Below, in pieces: positions 29,191 through 62,866 of a stretch of 64,000 nt of DNA (its first letter is position 1; every line of letters starts with the position of its first letter). Source of the DNA: Silurus meridionalis (Eukaryota > Chordata > Actinopteri > Siluriformes > Siluridae). Position numbers and translations under genes: made by a program. The DNA lies in NCBI RefSeq assembly GCF_014805685.1, contig NC_060886.1:24911608-24975607 (forward strand). The letters are read 5' to 3'. A model generated the notes under the pieces. The model saw nothing but the letters and a program-made list of their open reading frames with translations, ran no database searches and was not told the DNA's origin.

Positions 29191-33645
<4,455 letters not shown>

Positions 33646-34740: not shown

Positions 34741-34860
34741 GACTAGCGCGCCGCGCCAATGTGTCTTTGTTTATGGGAGCGCCGCTCATCGCCACCCACG
34801 TGCTCTGGAATTAGACACGTCATCGCGCGCGTCGCCAATGACAACCACCAATCAAGTTTT
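34741..34860 (-). promoter_or_regulatory. nr4a2: CpG-rich nr4a2 promoter with CRE-like, E-box and CCAAT motifs
   Basis: A local CpG-dense patch (several GCGCGC runs) in an otherwise AT-rich window, immediately 5' of the predicted first exon. Motifs seen: CRE half-site TGACGTG (minus, 34822-34816), E-box CACGTG (34797-34802), and CCAAT boxes on the plus strand at 34756-34760, 34835-34839 and 34848-34852. There is a TATA-like CATAAAC near 34770. NR4A2 is known as a CREB-responsive immediate-early gene, so the CRE-like site is expected. Binding is inferred. Confidence 0.6.
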
Positions 34861-36611: not shown

Positions 36612-37129
36612 TATTGGGGGGGGTTATTATTTTTTTACTGTCTGTATACTGTGAGAATGCTAAAAGATTTTATGATTCTTGCCTTGCATTATTATGGTAT
36701 TTTAAGGACATGATAATACAAAATGATCAGAAATTAGTTTGTTGCAAGTAGTTTTTAAAAAGTCTATATTTATTACTAACCTCATTGCTTTTAAACACAA
36801 ATCATAAGTCATAAGTCTTGAGACTATAAAACAGCATATACAGTCAGAACGTAGCCAGAAATATTTTTCAGCACCATGGACAGTTACCACAACACCCGCA
36901 CCCCCCTATAACCATACCTCCCACCACCACCACCAGTACAAAATGTGAAGGTAAATATAGAGCTGCTATTCACCTATACATTTTAGACACATCTCTTTTA
37001 ATAAGGGAGTTTCCAGGTTCCCATGTCCTCCTCATTCAGCAAAACTCCCACTGTTTTTCAGATTTAAGCTTTTTTTTCCCCCTGCTCTAACACACTTGAG
37101 TTAGAGAAAGGACAGGGTGTTTTCCAGGA

Positions 37130-41164: not shown

Positions 41165-41240
41165 CTTAACTCTTCTGGGAAGGTTTTCATTATGGGTTGA
41201 GTAGATTTGTGTTTGTTCAGTCACATGAGAGTGGTAATTA
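41165..41240 (+). repeat. Decayed dispersed repeat fragment related to the 52.5 kb element
   Basis: Shares ACTCTTCTGGGAAG and a following AGTAGATTTGTGTTTGTTCA arrangement with the block at 52558-52640. Too diverged to classify further. Confidence 0.35.
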
Positions 41241-42717: not shown

Positions 42718-44307
42718 CACCCACCAGAATATGTTTGTGAATATTGAACAACAACAATAAAAACATTGTTCTTATTGCTAATAATTATTTTTCAGATGAA
42801 ATAAGTTCTATAGTAACAACTTAGACAAGGAAGTACTTACTAAAATACTAAACTAAATTAATAATAAAAGTAATATAAATGTTTTATACAAGAAAAGGTG
42901 ATAAAAGAAACATCCAGAGAAGGTGACAAATTAAAGAGGGAAAAAAAATCAAACAAAAAGTCTCAGTAAAGCTTCAGTACACCTTAATATTGATTCTGAA
43001 TGTCTGGACCAGAACTGGAGATATGAACATTGTTCTCCCAAAACACATTCCCACAGATGGTGTATTGATGATGCTAGAGAGCACTGTTTAATACAATAGA
43101 TCATACCAAAATCTCCTATAGGTTTTTCAAGTGAGTTGAGCTCTGGTGAATTTCAAGGGCAAACCATATGATTTCTATTATTTTTAGCTTCACCAAAGTA
43201 TTCAGTATGGCCATGTGACCTATGGATGGGGGCGGAGTCATTCTGGAGGAGACCACTCACAACAGGATCGCAATGTATCATCATTGGTTAACAGTCATTG
43301 AGCAAAAAAAACTTGGCATACATATGAGTCCAGAGAACTGATCACTGTTCTTTTTTTGGCCTGGGGTTTGCTTTAATTAAACCCTGGTGCAGTTTAGATC
43401 AGGTCTGGAAGCGATCCACACTAAGCATCATTTGTTGTGTAATGAGATGTTAATTTCTGCCTTCATGATGCTGGGAAAATGGTTATTATTGTTATTGAAT
43501 GTATAAAACCAGACCTTTTTATAAAAAATAAAAATAAAACCTTTTTGGTTTTACCCTCGTTATCCTCATTATTTACCACATGCTCATTTTCATGCAAGCT
43601 TTAATATGACCTATGTGAGAGAGACATGTTTTTATTGCACCCTATCTGGATAGCCAAAAAGATTAGTAGCACATTTAATGTGTTCATACACAGCAAAATA
43701 GTTGTAATATTCATTTTTTTTTTTAAATCAACTGAAGGAAGCAAAGAAGATAATTGTGGATATATATTCATGCATTGTTTGGCTGCATTCATTCTCTGTT
43801 TTTCCTCTCCCTCCATCACTTTCTCTCACCTATAGTATAAAATTCTTTCCGTATTCCAGATTTACACAGAATCCGACTGTCATCTACCTTCAAAGCTTTT
43901 GTCACATTGGAACTTTTAACTGGTTGGAATCTATTTCGTATATTTTTTCATTATAGACTTTAGTGACCAAATATTGCATCTGAACTCTGAAAATGAGTTT
44001 GGCTCCCTTCTATTTAAGACTTTGGATTTTTTTTTAACAGTCACTGTTTATTCTCATGAATATTAATACAGTGCTTGCCCAATATATCTCTCTGTATCCC
44101 ATTCTCCTCTGTCACAGTCCTCCCTTAAACCAGATCACAGTGGAGGGAACAGATGCATATGAAAATGATATGTAATATTGCCTAAATATTTGGCAGAGAG
44201 AATAAGTAACCAAATATCAGAGAGGCAGCTGTTGATCTGGTGCCAGGGATTTTTGTTTCTTTCTCTCTTTCTCTCTCCCTCACTCTCTCTCTCTATCTCT
44301 CCCTCAG

Positions 44308-44425
44308 ATGGCCTTGGTAGAGAAGGGTGATTTCTCACCGGGGACCAGCAGCAGAAGCACTAAAGCTTATTCACGGCGGGGTCCGATATCTACAGAAAGC
44401 CATCATGAAATTAGATTACGAACAG
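44308..44425 (+). pseudogene. gpd2: Relic exon of gpd2 (mitochondrial glycerol-3-phosphate dehydrogenase), frameshifted
   Basis: After a pyrimidine-rich acceptor (CTCTCCCTCAG) the first frame reads ALVEKGDFSPGTSSRSTK. An extra A in the AAA at 44362-44364 shifts the frame, and the next frame continues LIHGGVRYLQKAIMKLDYEQ to a consensus donor GTAAAT at phase 0. Together they match the GPD2 exon that follows the FAD-binding GGGATG exon in vertebrates (human ALVERDDFSSGTSSRSTK then LIHGGVRYLQKAIMKLD). The intact enzyme oxidises glycerol-3-phosphate at the outer face of the inner mitochondrial membrane. The frameshift and absence of readable neighbouring exons indicate a dead copy. The plus strand fits the divergent NR4A2-GPD2 order known in human. 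An assembly error could mimic the frameshift but not the missing exons. Confidence 0.85.
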
Positions 44426-46770
44426 GTAAATGCTTCATTTTTTACTCTGCCGCTGACACTTATCCGCCAGAATTCCTGGTCCTTCTGGTCATATTGCTTT
44501 ATTTACCCTCACTCACCATTATTCATTCAAAAGAGGTCTTGACACGTTTGCATGGATTGAAAGGTGGGGATTTTTTTTCCCTCTCTCGCACTCTTTTTAT
44601 TTTCTGTAAAGTTGTTTCAGAGAACTGTGAGTACTTTTCTTTGGAGACAAGGTGGGTTAGAGAGGCCCTGTCATTATCAAAGATGGGAATTAATACAGAA
44701 AATTATATGAGAGTAATGGGTGGGCGAAACGCAGCATTTGGGCCTCCTTTTGTCTGCACGTTGTTAAGAAGTCAGCCAGGTTCAAACTGAAATGTCATCC
44801 TTTTCTGTTACATTTCAGAGTTTCTGAGGAAACTCATTATTTTAGGCCTGTGTTTTTCCCCCTTTCCACTCTTATTTGCCTCTCTGTATGAGCACACTAA
44901 GGTCTTAAAGGTGAAAGTGAGAGAGGCCCAATTAGCGAGATTGTGGTGAGAGGAACTGCTCACTCAGCACATATACTAAGATGTATAGACCAGTGCACAA
45001 GTCCAGAGATGAAGGAACAGGATTTTAGGCAAAGTGCAGTCACACGCTCATTAGGCTGGCAAAGTTACAATAAAATATCATTTCAGGCTGTGCGAAATTA
45101 TAATTTGTCTCTCACCACTAGATCAAGGTGTGTTAGTTTGGAGTTTGGAGAATTTCATATAATAACTAATGATATTTGTGGTGGTTATTAAAAGCAGGTT
45201 GTGTAATAAATACTTCACTGACCTGCTCTTGGACAACAGTCAGTCCAAAAGAGTGGCTTAGTTACAATCTAGCTGTGAGTAAAAACAATGCAAAGATGCA
45301 CAGAAATGCTCTGGGTTTTTTTTTTTACTAGATTAGGAGCTCTTTGTCCATGTAGAGACTTTGCTTAGTCTTTAATTACTCTCTCATTTAAGACTCTCAT
45401 TGAGGAAAGTCTTTTATTATTGGCTCAATCCTCCACTCCCAAATCTCTCTAATTGTAGGCCTGGCTTATTCAACAAGTATCCCAGTGATCAAATGTGATC
45501 CTTTGCAATGTGCCAGCCAGCCCACTCTACTGCTGTCTATTATGAATGAATGAAAATAATATAGAAAATCTTCAACCTATGATTATAATTATAAAAAAAA
45601 TAAAAAATGTATCATTTATTAGAAGACAATATAATACAATTGATCAATTCCTCAGCAGAAACAAGTTAAAGCGCATTTTGATTTCTTTCTTGCTGTAAGA
45701 GTTCACTCATAGACAATGGGATTCTTAGCTAACTAGCTAAGCCGACCCACAATAATGTATAGCTAGGCCCAAATCGACAAACAAACACATTTGTTCATCT
45801 TGTTTTATTCCTGATTGTGGCTGAACATGCAATTCTGATCAGTCATAAAGTATTGATTAACTGTCTGTAACAGAACAGCTGGTACATTAGATCTGACAGA
45901 AAGGCAAATAGCATGTTTATATAATTGCACATTTAATATATTGTTTCTAAAGTAATCACTTACACAAGAACTTGTATGGCAAATTAAACACATAACCTGT
46001 TAAAAACTAAACAGGTAACTGGATTATGGTAAATTTTCTGAGATTAGGTTGTTTACTTACTCATTTTCTAAAATGAGTCTAGAGTATCAATGCAGTGTAA
46101 CAGAGGTCACATTGTAACTAAGAGTTCAGACACTCTTGATGATGTGTATGGTATAAGAGAATAAAACACTTTGGGAAGTGATGTATTGGAAAATAGTCCA
46201 TTTCATGATGGTAAGATTAACTGCACTTTGTGTACTTCAATATAATGGATGTCATGTGTTTCTGCATAGTATGAAAGTAACCAAAAACAAATATGTTTTT
46301 CAGGTTGAAACTTGAGGATCCTGAAATGCACACCAAAAAGTTGTAAGGTTTTAGATATATATATCTAAAGAAGAAAAAGTTACAGATACAGAAAGTGGGA
46401 CTGGTTTACAACTTACTTGAGTAAAAAGATATTCTCTCACTCTATCCTTCCTACAATAGGAGGTCTTAATTTTATACAGATCATATAAGCAGCATTAATG
46501 CTCAGGCTTACTCCAATATCACCACTAATCCCATTTTGGTAAAACAAGATGATAGATAATAAACTGATAAGTGTTCAGGGATAGAAGGAAGGAGGTAGAG
46601 ACCAGACACTTCTCCTCTTAAAAAAAACGTAGACTAGTCAGTCGATGATGAAACAGCGTCTGCCCCAGAAACAGCAGTCCTACTCTGACACCTTTTTCTG
46701 AACGTTATTTCAGAAAAAGTAAATACAACACAGGAACTTTCAGCTTTTTTCAAAACATCAAAAGTGTATG

Positions 46771-52539: not shown

Positions 52540-53404
52540 TGCTCTTATAATTTCCTCCACTCTTCTGGGAAGATGTTCCACTAGATTTTGGAGTGTGCTA
52601 ATGGATATTTGAGTTTATTAGCCACAAGGGTATTATGAAAGGCAGGTACTGATGTAGGGTGGTATTATATGAGGAAGTGAGGTGTTCAGGTGTGTTAGAG
52701 AAGTATGTGAGGGTGGTGAAGGACATGTATAAGGACAGTGTGACAGCAGTAAAGTGTAGTGGAGTGGTGCAGTTGCAGAGAGAAGAGGTGGTGAATGTGG
52801 AGGATTTCAGGTACCTGGGTTCAACAGTGCAAAGTAATGGAGAGTGTGTTAGAGAAGTGAAGAAAAGAGTGCAGGCAGGGTGGAGTGGGTGGAGAAGAGT
52901 GACAGGAGTGATTTGTGATAGAAGGGTATCTGCAAGAGTGAAAGGGAAAGTTTATAGGATTGTGGTGAGACCTGCGATGTTGTATGGTTTAGAGACAGTG
53001 GCATTGAGTAAAAGACAGGAGGTGGAGCTGGAGGTAGCAGAGCTAAAGATGTTGAGATTTTCATTGGGAGTAACGACGATGGACAGGATTAAAAACAAGG
53101 AGGTACATGAGGTATATCGATGGGAAAATGCTTAAGGATGGAGACACCAGGAAGGAGGAATAGGGGAAGGCCATAAAGGAGGTTCATGGACGTGGTAAGG
53201 GAAGACATGCAGGTAGTTAGTTTTCAAGACGCAGATAAAGAGGACAGATTAGTATGGACACGGATGATCCACTGTGGCGACCCCTAATAGGAGCAGCCGA
53301 AAGAAGAAGAAGAAGGTACTGATATAGGGTGAGGAGGCCTGGGGTGCAGTCAGTGTTCCAAAGGTTTTACTAGGGATGAGATCAGAGCTCTATAGCAGGC
53401 CACT

Positions 53405-55224: not shown

Positions 55225-55424
55225 GCTGGTCTTTGACACACACAGGCGAGAGGGAAAATTAGGTATGTCTGCTCCCTATTAATTATAGTCCCTGCTTTAG
55301 TTTCGCATGGAGGCGGACGAGCCACTCCATTACGGTGAAGCTGTCGGCTGATAAATTAATAATCGCCCTTGTCAGGGCCAACAGATGAATGGGCAGCAGT
55401 GATTGATGCTGTTTTCTTTCACAG
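55225..55424. promoter_or_regulatory. Candidate enhancer abutting the gpd2 relic exon
   Basis: Non-repetitive, GC-balanced block immediately 5' of the 55425 relic exon, with TCCCTATTAATTATAGTCCC, GGCTGATAAATTAATAATCG and CAGCAGTGATTGATGCTG. It would lie in a gpd2 intron in the ancestral gene. Enhancer role is inferred. Confidence 0.35.
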
Positions 55425-55535
55425 GGCACCAGTTTGATATGAGGGCCAAATGTGTAATCGGTGCCACCCGAGCCTTCACGTACGACACTCAGAACAGAAT
55501 AGATAACCAGGACTCAAGTGCAGACCCAGACATCA
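55425..55535 (+). pseudogene. gpd2: Relic exon of gpd2, diverged in the conserved NATGPFTD region
   Basis: A good acceptor (TTTTCTTTCACAG) is followed by a frame reading HQFDMRAKCVIGATRAFTYD and then TQNRIDNQDSSADPDIIV. Vertebrate GPD2 has (G)QEFDVRAKCVINATGPFTD and then RKMDDKDAAAICQPSAGVHI. The start is near-identical (FD.RAKCVI.AT), but the invariant GPFTD is changed to RAFTY, and the ICQPSAGVH portion is shortened by several codons. The entry phase (G|GG) matches the GPD2 exon junction. No donor or following exon was recognised. It is plus strand and lies in the correct order after the 44.3 kb relic. Confidence 0.75.
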
Positions 55536-60360: not shown

Positions 60361-62866
60361 CATACTCATAGTTTTCACTATAGTTACTTGTGTAATGTAA
60401 GTAATTTGATTAGAATTTAGGCTCTGTTGTTAGCCTAAAGACAAAAGCAATGTGACAGAATTCGGGTCAGGCACTTGTGGAAAATGGCTCACAGATACAG
60501 ACTGGTGTCGATGAAAATGTGTCACTTAGTGTATGCGTTTGAGTTCTTAGTGTCCAACATTGAGTTCAGTGGTTAAAGGTGAGTGACTGTTGGAATGACT
60601 GAATGATCCTGCTAATGTCCTGCAGTCATAGGCTAATTTGAAGCATGCTGCCTACAGTCAAAGAGAAAGACAATATTAGAGAGATTTATTTAGAGATTTA
60701 TTTTTAACTCAGCTTTAGGAAATAAAGAATAATTTACAATAAATTATTATTTTAGTGTAGTACTTAAAAAAAATTAAGTGTAAAAAATGGTGTTAAAAAA
60801 CAGTTCACCTTCATAAATAAAACAGATAGCATTTGTATAACACCACTTCAACATAAAAGTGCTCAAATCATTCATTGCTTTAAAGAAATCAGTCCCTTTT
60901 TCTCTTAGATTTTTTTCAGCTTATGTAGATAGTCGTTTTTCCTTCTCCTACAATGAAGCAGTTCCCATTTTTGCTTTTCTGCTTTTTTTGTAACCATTTG
61001 CAAAAATGAACCAAACCTGGGACCATGTTTCACCAAAAGAGATAAAAATAGTTTTCAGCAGCTCAAACGGAGGGTTAAGCCTTTTGCATAAAAAAAAAAA
61101 AAAAACAGTGAAAAACAGAATCTCTTACTTTTTCATTACAAAAGGGACTTTAAAACATCTGGATTTAACTTAAATTAAAACATTGACCCCCACTGCTCTA
61201 TGTACAATTCTCCACTGTAAATCACCCAATCTCTTCTAACTGCCATTTTACAGAACACTTTCCAGGTTGTGTCATCTCAAACACCAAGCTTTTCTCTCCA
61301 CACTGTATCTGCCTCCCGTTCAACTTTCTTTTGTCTACAGTTTTAACACGACATTTGTAGATTTCTTTACCTTTTGCTTCCCAAATAGGTAAATCATCTC
61401 CTTATCTAAGTTCATCTGTTGACAGTCTGCTGATCCATTTTTTGATGATGATTTTAATGATGTCCTCTGTGACCGTAGCCTGAGCTCCTCAGCCACCGTA
61501 CTTGTGTCTTTAAAATCCAGTCCTGCCGTGTCCACTAGTCTCTTCGGTGTTGTGAACGTTTTGCACTGTTTGCGAAGCCTGTCGAAATGTCTTTAGTGCC
61601 CGTTTTCCTCTCACTAAAGGCTCTTCCAGAAGCCAGTGTAGTGCGACAGCAGGGCCGTGGGATTAATGCTTAAGCTTTAAAAACACTCAGATCCAACCAT
61701 GTATTTTTGTATAGTTTGAAAGCAAAACATTGCAATTCTGCTCCTAATGTCTATTAGGCCTTGCGCTCTTTCCTCTATAGGGAGGAACAGGACACTCTAA
61801 GGAACCCAGTGTAGTTTATCCCAAATGTAACTAATGATCACTGTATATTTTCAACAAGGCCAGTAGGGGGCTCCAGGCAAGCTAGGCAGTGTTAAAGCTA
61901 CTAAGTTGTTTGTCACAATTACCCTCTTTTTCCAAGATTCACTCCAAATTTTTACAATTCTTAATTGAGGTATATTCCTAGATATTTAAATTCTCTTTTA
62001 GTCAATTTTAGTCCCCCTGCTAGCTTTGGTAACCCATACGATCAGTTGATTCTAAAAAAGGATTAAATTTAGTTTCTTTGTTTTTTTCTGTGTTCATCAC
62101 TTTCTGTTTCTCTGTTTATATCTTGTTCATTGCTCGATTCTAATTTTGCTTCCTGACTGTTTCGGATTTTTTCCTCTTTTTCTACTTCAACTAATCCCAT
62201 TTTCCTAGTTTATGGGGGACTAGTTGTTATCCGGACTGGAGTGAAACCTGAATGTCATTGCTGTCTGTTCTTGTGCACTCATCCTTATTTTGGTTATTAG
62301 CATGCTGTATGTCCTGTTCAGTGTTATCCTTAGCATTTACTTGTGGGTTTTCTGTTCCTATTTCCATGTTGTTTACTTCCTGATCAGTGTTTCCTGACCT
62401 TCTGTGTTATTTTCTTCTTCTTTAATTTCATCCTGTCCACTGGTATCAGTTTTATGAGAGGTACACTGCTTTACCAAACCTAGACAACTGTTTTGATAAC
62501 ACATCATTATCAGTAAATAGGGGTACATTATCAATAAATCTGGGTCGTTAGACAGGATAACTTTTTTCTTGGGAGTACTGAGGGAGAGCGCTTTAAACTA
62601 GGTGTCTTTTATCACAACCCTACTAGCAACCACAGACTCAATTTTGTGAACTTAATTTACGAACAACTAACTTAGGTACCGCTGAAGCACACTTTACAGA
62701 GCATGCGGCAGTCATTATCACATTAAAACCATGCTTTTGCATCGGGTTTGTAAACAGCATGACGCCAAAAAACAAGGTGTCTTTCATATCTTTTACACAC
62801 GGAAAAAGAAAAACACGAGACCTTCACTCACACCTTCACCACAGGCTCACCCGCCTGCTTCCTCAC
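60361..62866. other. Intergenic DNA without recognised features
   Basis: AT-rich, with short composition-driven frames only. No later gpd2 exon was recognised. Confidence 0.6.

Follow-up and report, generated by a model that had tools for sequence, protein, structure and literature searches.

Exonic remnants of genome duplication were reportedly described by Dong et al. in Nucleic Acids Research in 2010; in these, the lost copy of a teleost gene pair leaves behind an exon, which persists as non-coding DNA beside a retained developmental regulator. The gpd2 exon analyzed here is in the same situation, and differs in being known from the sequence of a single genome. It also resembles exonic enhancers (eExons or coding enhancers) in that exon sequence is proposed to regulate a neighboring gene; unlike these, the coding role of the relic is over, and the intact copy elsewhere in the genome would be the dual-use case. 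A further likeness is to the genomic regulatory block with a bystander, gpd2 being the metabolic bystander and nr4a2 the regulated target, linked at both copies, although here the nr4a2 locus is likened to such blocks by gene arrangement in one genome. Dong et al. are reported to have studied such remnants of duplicated zebrafish genes, and the one that they tested, from Elp4, reportedly influenced activity inside a larger piece and gave no consistent expression alone (PMC3342275). Among the papers listed in our literature search, none dealt with a relic of gpd2 beside nr4a2, and gpd2 was absent from the text of PMC13216554, which cites Dong et al. The exon described below probably joins the first of these kinds, having outlasted its gene as regulatory DNA.

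The window, i.e., the whole stretch of 64,000 nucleotides that was analyzed, is the forward strand of contig C3 from 24911608 to 24975607 in a genome of 742.6 Mb. A sequence-only reading had placed a relic exon of gpd2 next to nr4a2, and this was borne out by alignment to the live exon, by a GPD2 profile, and by the rest of the locus. The relic, exon 3 in our numbering (E3) of gpd2 copy B, lies at 44308-44425 on the plus strand and reads as ALVEKGDFSPGTSSRSTK and, in the frame that follows, as LIHGGVRYLQKAIMKLDYEQ; these two peptides, their frames, the coordinates and the one extra A at 44362-44364 were all confirmed. Compared with the live gpd2 exon of the same genome, the relic had 81% identity across 120 aligned columns (E 3e-25), and the alignment placed a single surplus A within the A run at 44362-44364. 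When 163 kb were searched with a profile of 54 GPD2 proteins, the sequence 3' of the extra A scored 35.1 bits (E 1e-9), and that 5' of it 13.4 bits (E 0.004). The resemblance to GPD2 far exceeds chance. The same reading had taken both splice sites as intact, and this held for the donor, a GT at 44426-44427, and is questionable for the acceptor. In a gapped alignment, about 8 bases are absent from the exon directly 3' of the AG; in the alternative, ungapped alignment, the AG falls inside the exon and the true acceptor is overwritten by a CT-rich tract. This tract (44250-44304, plus strand, limits read by eye) possibly replaced the original acceptor, and it took 208 of the 211 matches of the exon-3 region in the 263 kb searched. 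An intact acceptor thus seems doubtful under either alignment, and the exon appears to carry two lesions, a damaged 5' end besides the extra A.

A search of the genome for a second, intact gpd2, which had been proposed with that reading, found it on another contig, at C1:1819334-1841824. Fifteen coding exons were read there (a count that excludes the first exon, with the start codon) with no stop until the end, every exon having an AG acceptor and the 14 internal junctions having GT donors. Exon 3 and a further relic exon, exon 7, are collinear with this live gene. PF16901, the C-terminal domain of the enzyme family, gave two matches in the whole genome, both in exons of the live copy. Used as a DNA query against the whole genome, the relic exon matched only itself; since this search missed the 81% identical live exon, its reach is short and does not extend to further copies at live-exon distance.

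Both gpd2 copies have an nr4a2 gene beside them. In the window, the coding exons of nr4a2a occupy 29195-33645 on the minus strand, with the computed start codon near 33645 facing the relic. The dead copy adjoins a developmental regulator. On the other contig, a second nr4a2 (C1:1800335-1803730) adjoins the live gpd2 in the same order and orientation. The nr4a2 of the window is 98% identical to Ictalurus nr4a2a (P0147) and collinear with the C1 gene, which we infer to be nr4a2b. Between nr4a2a and the relic, 34741-34842 (69% of 104 columns, E 0.003) and 41169-41225 (73% of 62, E 0.022) matched weakly to places near the C1 nr4a2; they stand in the same order on C1 and are candidate shared upstream elements. 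The low-copy collinear comparison of the blocks also returned the nr4a2 exons and gpd2 exons 7 and 14, and because of its CT tract the exon 3 region was absent from the list; one further low-copy match between the blocks, at 36763, was out of order. In Solea senegalensis, gpd2 and nr4a2 are listed together for one BAC clone (PMC7915175).

Little else of the dead copy was recovered. The 163 kb around the locus were searched with three kinds of query, namely the exons of the live gene, its protein and the profile of 54 GPD2 proteins, and secure traces beside nr4a2a were found for exons 3 and 7 only, 13 of the 15 exons read from the live copy having none within this range. The exon 7 fragment (55421-55522, plus strand), which is decayed and has a 3-nt insertion, was detected by tblastn (E 3e-5 with the human protein and 4e-4 with the live protein), by blastn (E 2e-5) and by the profile (19.9 bits, E 4e-5). 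Exons 10 and 14 left doubtful traces: the former is a possible fragment with one stop codon at 61648-61716 (plus strand; profile 5.5 bits, E 0.85), right in strand and order, and the latter a blastn match (E 4e-4) outside the window, at C3:24983021-24983106 (plus strand), for which the profile gave no protein-level support. All four pieces are on the plus strand and in order, and a control search with the reversed protein gave nothing stronger than E 0.83. Neither the live protein nor the profile detected, within the 163 kb, an upstream gpd2 partner exon 5' of exon 3. An exon 12-like match at C3:24989973 was rejected, having an E of 4.4, at noise level, and lying out of order with the exon 14 match; a blastn match of exon 5 (E 0.009) was attributed to chance, being inside nr4a2a and on the opposite strand. 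The window also holds an open reading frame at 52653-53135, which may resemble the end of the reverse transcriptase of a LINE-type element.

To place the two copies, a tree of GPD2 (n = 54) was built from the live copy and 53 proteins chosen from 146 listed, the listings being the best 120 of 7992 and the best 120 of 7325 matches; its root is a midpoint only. Clade A (30 rows, support 100/99) contained all 13 otophysan rows, the live C1 copy among them, together with one copy each from milkfish and two clupeiforms; these 13 rows comprise catfishes, Electrophorus and cypriniforms, with no characiform. The live C1 protein all but coincided in this tree with that of Silurus meridionalis, with branch lengths of 0 and 0.0017, as befits a Silurus-like catfish. 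Clade B (10 rows, support 100/98), beside which the early-teleost branches are weak (85/53), was formed by milkfish, clupeiform (herring), salmonid, Polymixia, Centroberyx and Myripristis copies, and by none of the 13 otophysan rows, chosen as these were among the matches listed. Among these matches, milkfish, Polymixia, Engraulis and Alosa each had two gpd2 copies, one per clade, and the 13 otophysan rows were of clade A only. We also compared contig sizes for 17 gpd2 and 15 nr4a2 rows picked by eye. Thirteen of the gpd2 rows were on a contig equal in size to that of a picked nr4a2 row; seven of them are in clade A, two (Arapaima and the frog Pyxicephalus) fall outside A and B, and four are not in the tree. 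The four rows with no equal-sized nr4a2 contig (Chanos P0102, Polymixia P0122, Centroberyx P0079 and Myripristis P0114) all belong to clade B. The nr4a2 partner of the Chanos gpd2 was the sole one named nr4a2b among the matched rows.

The simplest reading of these data is that gpd2 A pairs with nr4a2b and gpd2 B with nr4a2a, and that the relic is what remains of copy B. The linkage of B to nr4a2a is taken from the Silurus genome alone; in the protein listing, which shows one contig per cluster, no B copy shared a contig with an nr4a2a. Synteny was used for this assignment because the relic fragment is too short for placement in the tree; an attempt with its 66 readable residues was given up when the tree program omitted it for that reason. 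Over 30 rows, the fragment had from 48 to 52 identities in 66, the top value of 52 being shared by five rows, namely milkfish B, Amia and three from clade A; its sequence, taken alone, does not place it in clade B. The relic's Gly in ALVE(K/R)GDF was found, among 115 of the 120 listed proteins, only in milkfish B (P0102 and its isoform P0103), and among the 53 database rows of the tree in P0102 alone, which gives weak support to a link with milkfish copy B. The paired nr4a2-gpd2 blocks and clades A and B together indicate an origin by genome duplication, and we hold it as almost certain that the relic is a whole-genome-duplication copy. By synteny, then, the relic comes from a duplicated gene whose coding copy is lost here and intact on C1. 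That it descends from a gpd2 exon is close to certain.

Relic and live exon 3 differed at 9 of 13 fourfold sites, and nr4a2a and the C1 nr4a2 at 87 of 167 (two wrong-frame alignments having been dropped; 88 of 193 with them). The divergence of exon 3 disfavors a recent duplication or gene conversion, though fourfold divergence alone does not date the death of the gpd2 copy. A recent copy of the live gene, whether segmental or retroposed, is in fact refuted, and we give it practically no weight: nothing was found in its favor, the exons are spread out in live-gene order, nr4a2 stands beside both copies, and the fourfold sites have diverged. The suggestion that the gene had died fairly recently was likewise not sustained, given this divergence, the 13 exons with no secure trace, and the lack of otophysan rows in clade B among the matches listed. 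The sequence-only reading had also considered a live gene with a sequence error, for which an intact set of gpd2 exons on the strand of the window would be expected. One base-call error is plausible in itself, as the frame of the first nr4a2a coding exon shifts once at 33360-33400, where Ictalurus nr4a2a reads through; the assembly is one base short there, whether through a private mutation or through an error in base calling. The extra A may therefore be an assembly error too, and the verdict on the relic would not change, since most of the gene beside nr4a2a is gone. Within the 163 kb searched there was no complete in-frame exon set; what is left of exon 7 is decayed, and a second lesion seems to mark the 5' end of exon 3, so that a live second gpd2 is refuted unless the contig is badly misassembled, and we judge it extremely improbable.

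The remains of the dead copy have decayed unevenly. Compared with milkfish copy B, 2 of 37 residues were changed in exon 3 (35 kept) and 12 of 29 in the exon 7 fragment (17 kept; Fisher p 0.0006). Compared with the live copy, the changes were 3 of 37 and 12 of 29, respectively, and when only residues shared by the live copy and the human protein were counted, they were 2 of 35 and 8 of 22 (p 0.009). If exon 3 had changed at the rate of exon 7, at most two changes in 37 would have a binomial probability of 9e-7, which becomes 1.4e-5 when corrected for 15 exons. These counts were made by eye, the first comparison being confirmed with a tool and the last by eye only; exon 7 is the sole comparison exon, within one genome, and exon 3 came to notice as the best kept exon. 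The exon 7 fragment is the recognizable part of its exon, and this should bias against the contrast.

Part of the preceding intron also seems to be preserved. The motifs TATGAAAATGA and CTAAATATTTGG, an 11-mer and a 12-mer, stand 13 bases apart in both copies, the relic having them at 44158-44193 (plus strand) and the live gene at C1:1820611-1820646, and form a block of 36 bp that starts 150 and 138 bases, respectively, 5' of exon 3. A pattern search for the two parts with 8 to 24 bases between them matched these two sites in the whole genome (742 Mb), and the reversed pattern had no match genome-wide; as the pattern had been derived by aligning these two copies, both sites were given beforehand, and what is informative is the lack of any others. 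The similarity to intron 2 of the live gpd2 covers 44131-44227 (plus strand) by blastn and local alignment. With window positions 44108-44232 as the query against 100 kb of C1, the best blastn match was the corresponding intron (E 0.001), the runner-up being a non-corresponding place (E 0.027). The local alignment of the intron side scored 21, whereas none of 2000 dinucleotide shuffles exceeded 19, for a piece chosen after the alignment had been viewed. Taken alone, the intronic match looks modest.

Because the intron piece and exon 3 are kept better than the other remains of the dead gene, a function at the DNA level is indicated, and we consider it rather likely, on these sequence comparisons, that they were kept because they belong to a cis-regulatory element of nr4a2a. 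The residual function entertained earlier would fit in this form, as regulatory DNA, and not as an enzyme. By codon position, exon 3 differs from the live exon at 4, 1 and 16 of 37 first, second and third positions; this pattern is coding-like, as expected if much of its history was coding, and counts against regulatory retention. Loss of one duplicate copy is common, and exon 3 could be a functionless leftover of an ordinary decaying duplicate in which most exons were deleted or drifted; the other scraps that persist (exon 7, perhaps 10 and 14) and the two lesions in exon 3 itself agree with this. We nevertheless find chance survival rather unlikely, as the state of exon 3 would be very improbable under uniform decay at the level of exon 7, and a matching intronic block is not predicted by it. 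Splicing into a non-coding or short transcript, with splicing or an RNA function preserving the exon, would fit the kept GT donor and an AG that lies 3' of a pyrimidine-rich tract. That acceptor may be new, however, the 163 kb searched showed no gpd2 exon upstream with which it could be joined, and a block some 115 to 150 bases 5' of the exon would be unusual for a splice signal, all of which make this account distinctly improbable.

Under retention as an nr4a2a element, the teleost genome duplication would have given two nr4a2-gpd2 blocks, of which the C1 block, with the presumed nr4a2b, kept gpd2 intact. The nr4a2a block would have lost the enzyme gene, with most exons decaying beyond recognition, and exon 3 and a piece of the preceding intron would have stayed as part of the element. 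Transcription factors would bind this element, and it would contact the nr4a2a promoter. Selection for regulation, nr4a2a as the target, factor binding and looping are all inferred; nr4a2a is the nearest regulated gene, its start codon lying about 10.7 kb from exon 3. Human NR4A2 is classed with likely targets of long-range regulation (PMC3923872), and in K562 cells its promoter is reported to contact that of GPD2 as well as five putative enhancers, of which four lie within 100 kb (PMC4650858). The behavior of the Elp4 remnant would fit an element that combines exon and intron sequence, and, like the NR4A2 contacts, it may serve as a supporting analogy. More tentatively, and with somewhat more doubt than belief, the intron-2 block and exon 3 might represent a pre-teleost nr4a2 enhancer inside gpd2, now dual-use on C1 and purely regulatory beside nr4a2a.

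The apparent loss of gpd2 copy B in otophysans could be dated. If the remnant is not regulatory, it is an ordinary dead duplicate. In zebrafish, dopaminergic neurons expressing nr4a2a need this gene for expression of tyrosine hydroxylase and the dopamine transporter (PMC2217549). If the remnant is regulatory, it would be a small, concrete DNA element of nr4a2a, and would reveal which positions of a gpd2 exon count for regulation after its coding role has ended; and if the dual-use enhancer proved true, the relic would separate the regulatory constraint on this exon from its coding constraint.
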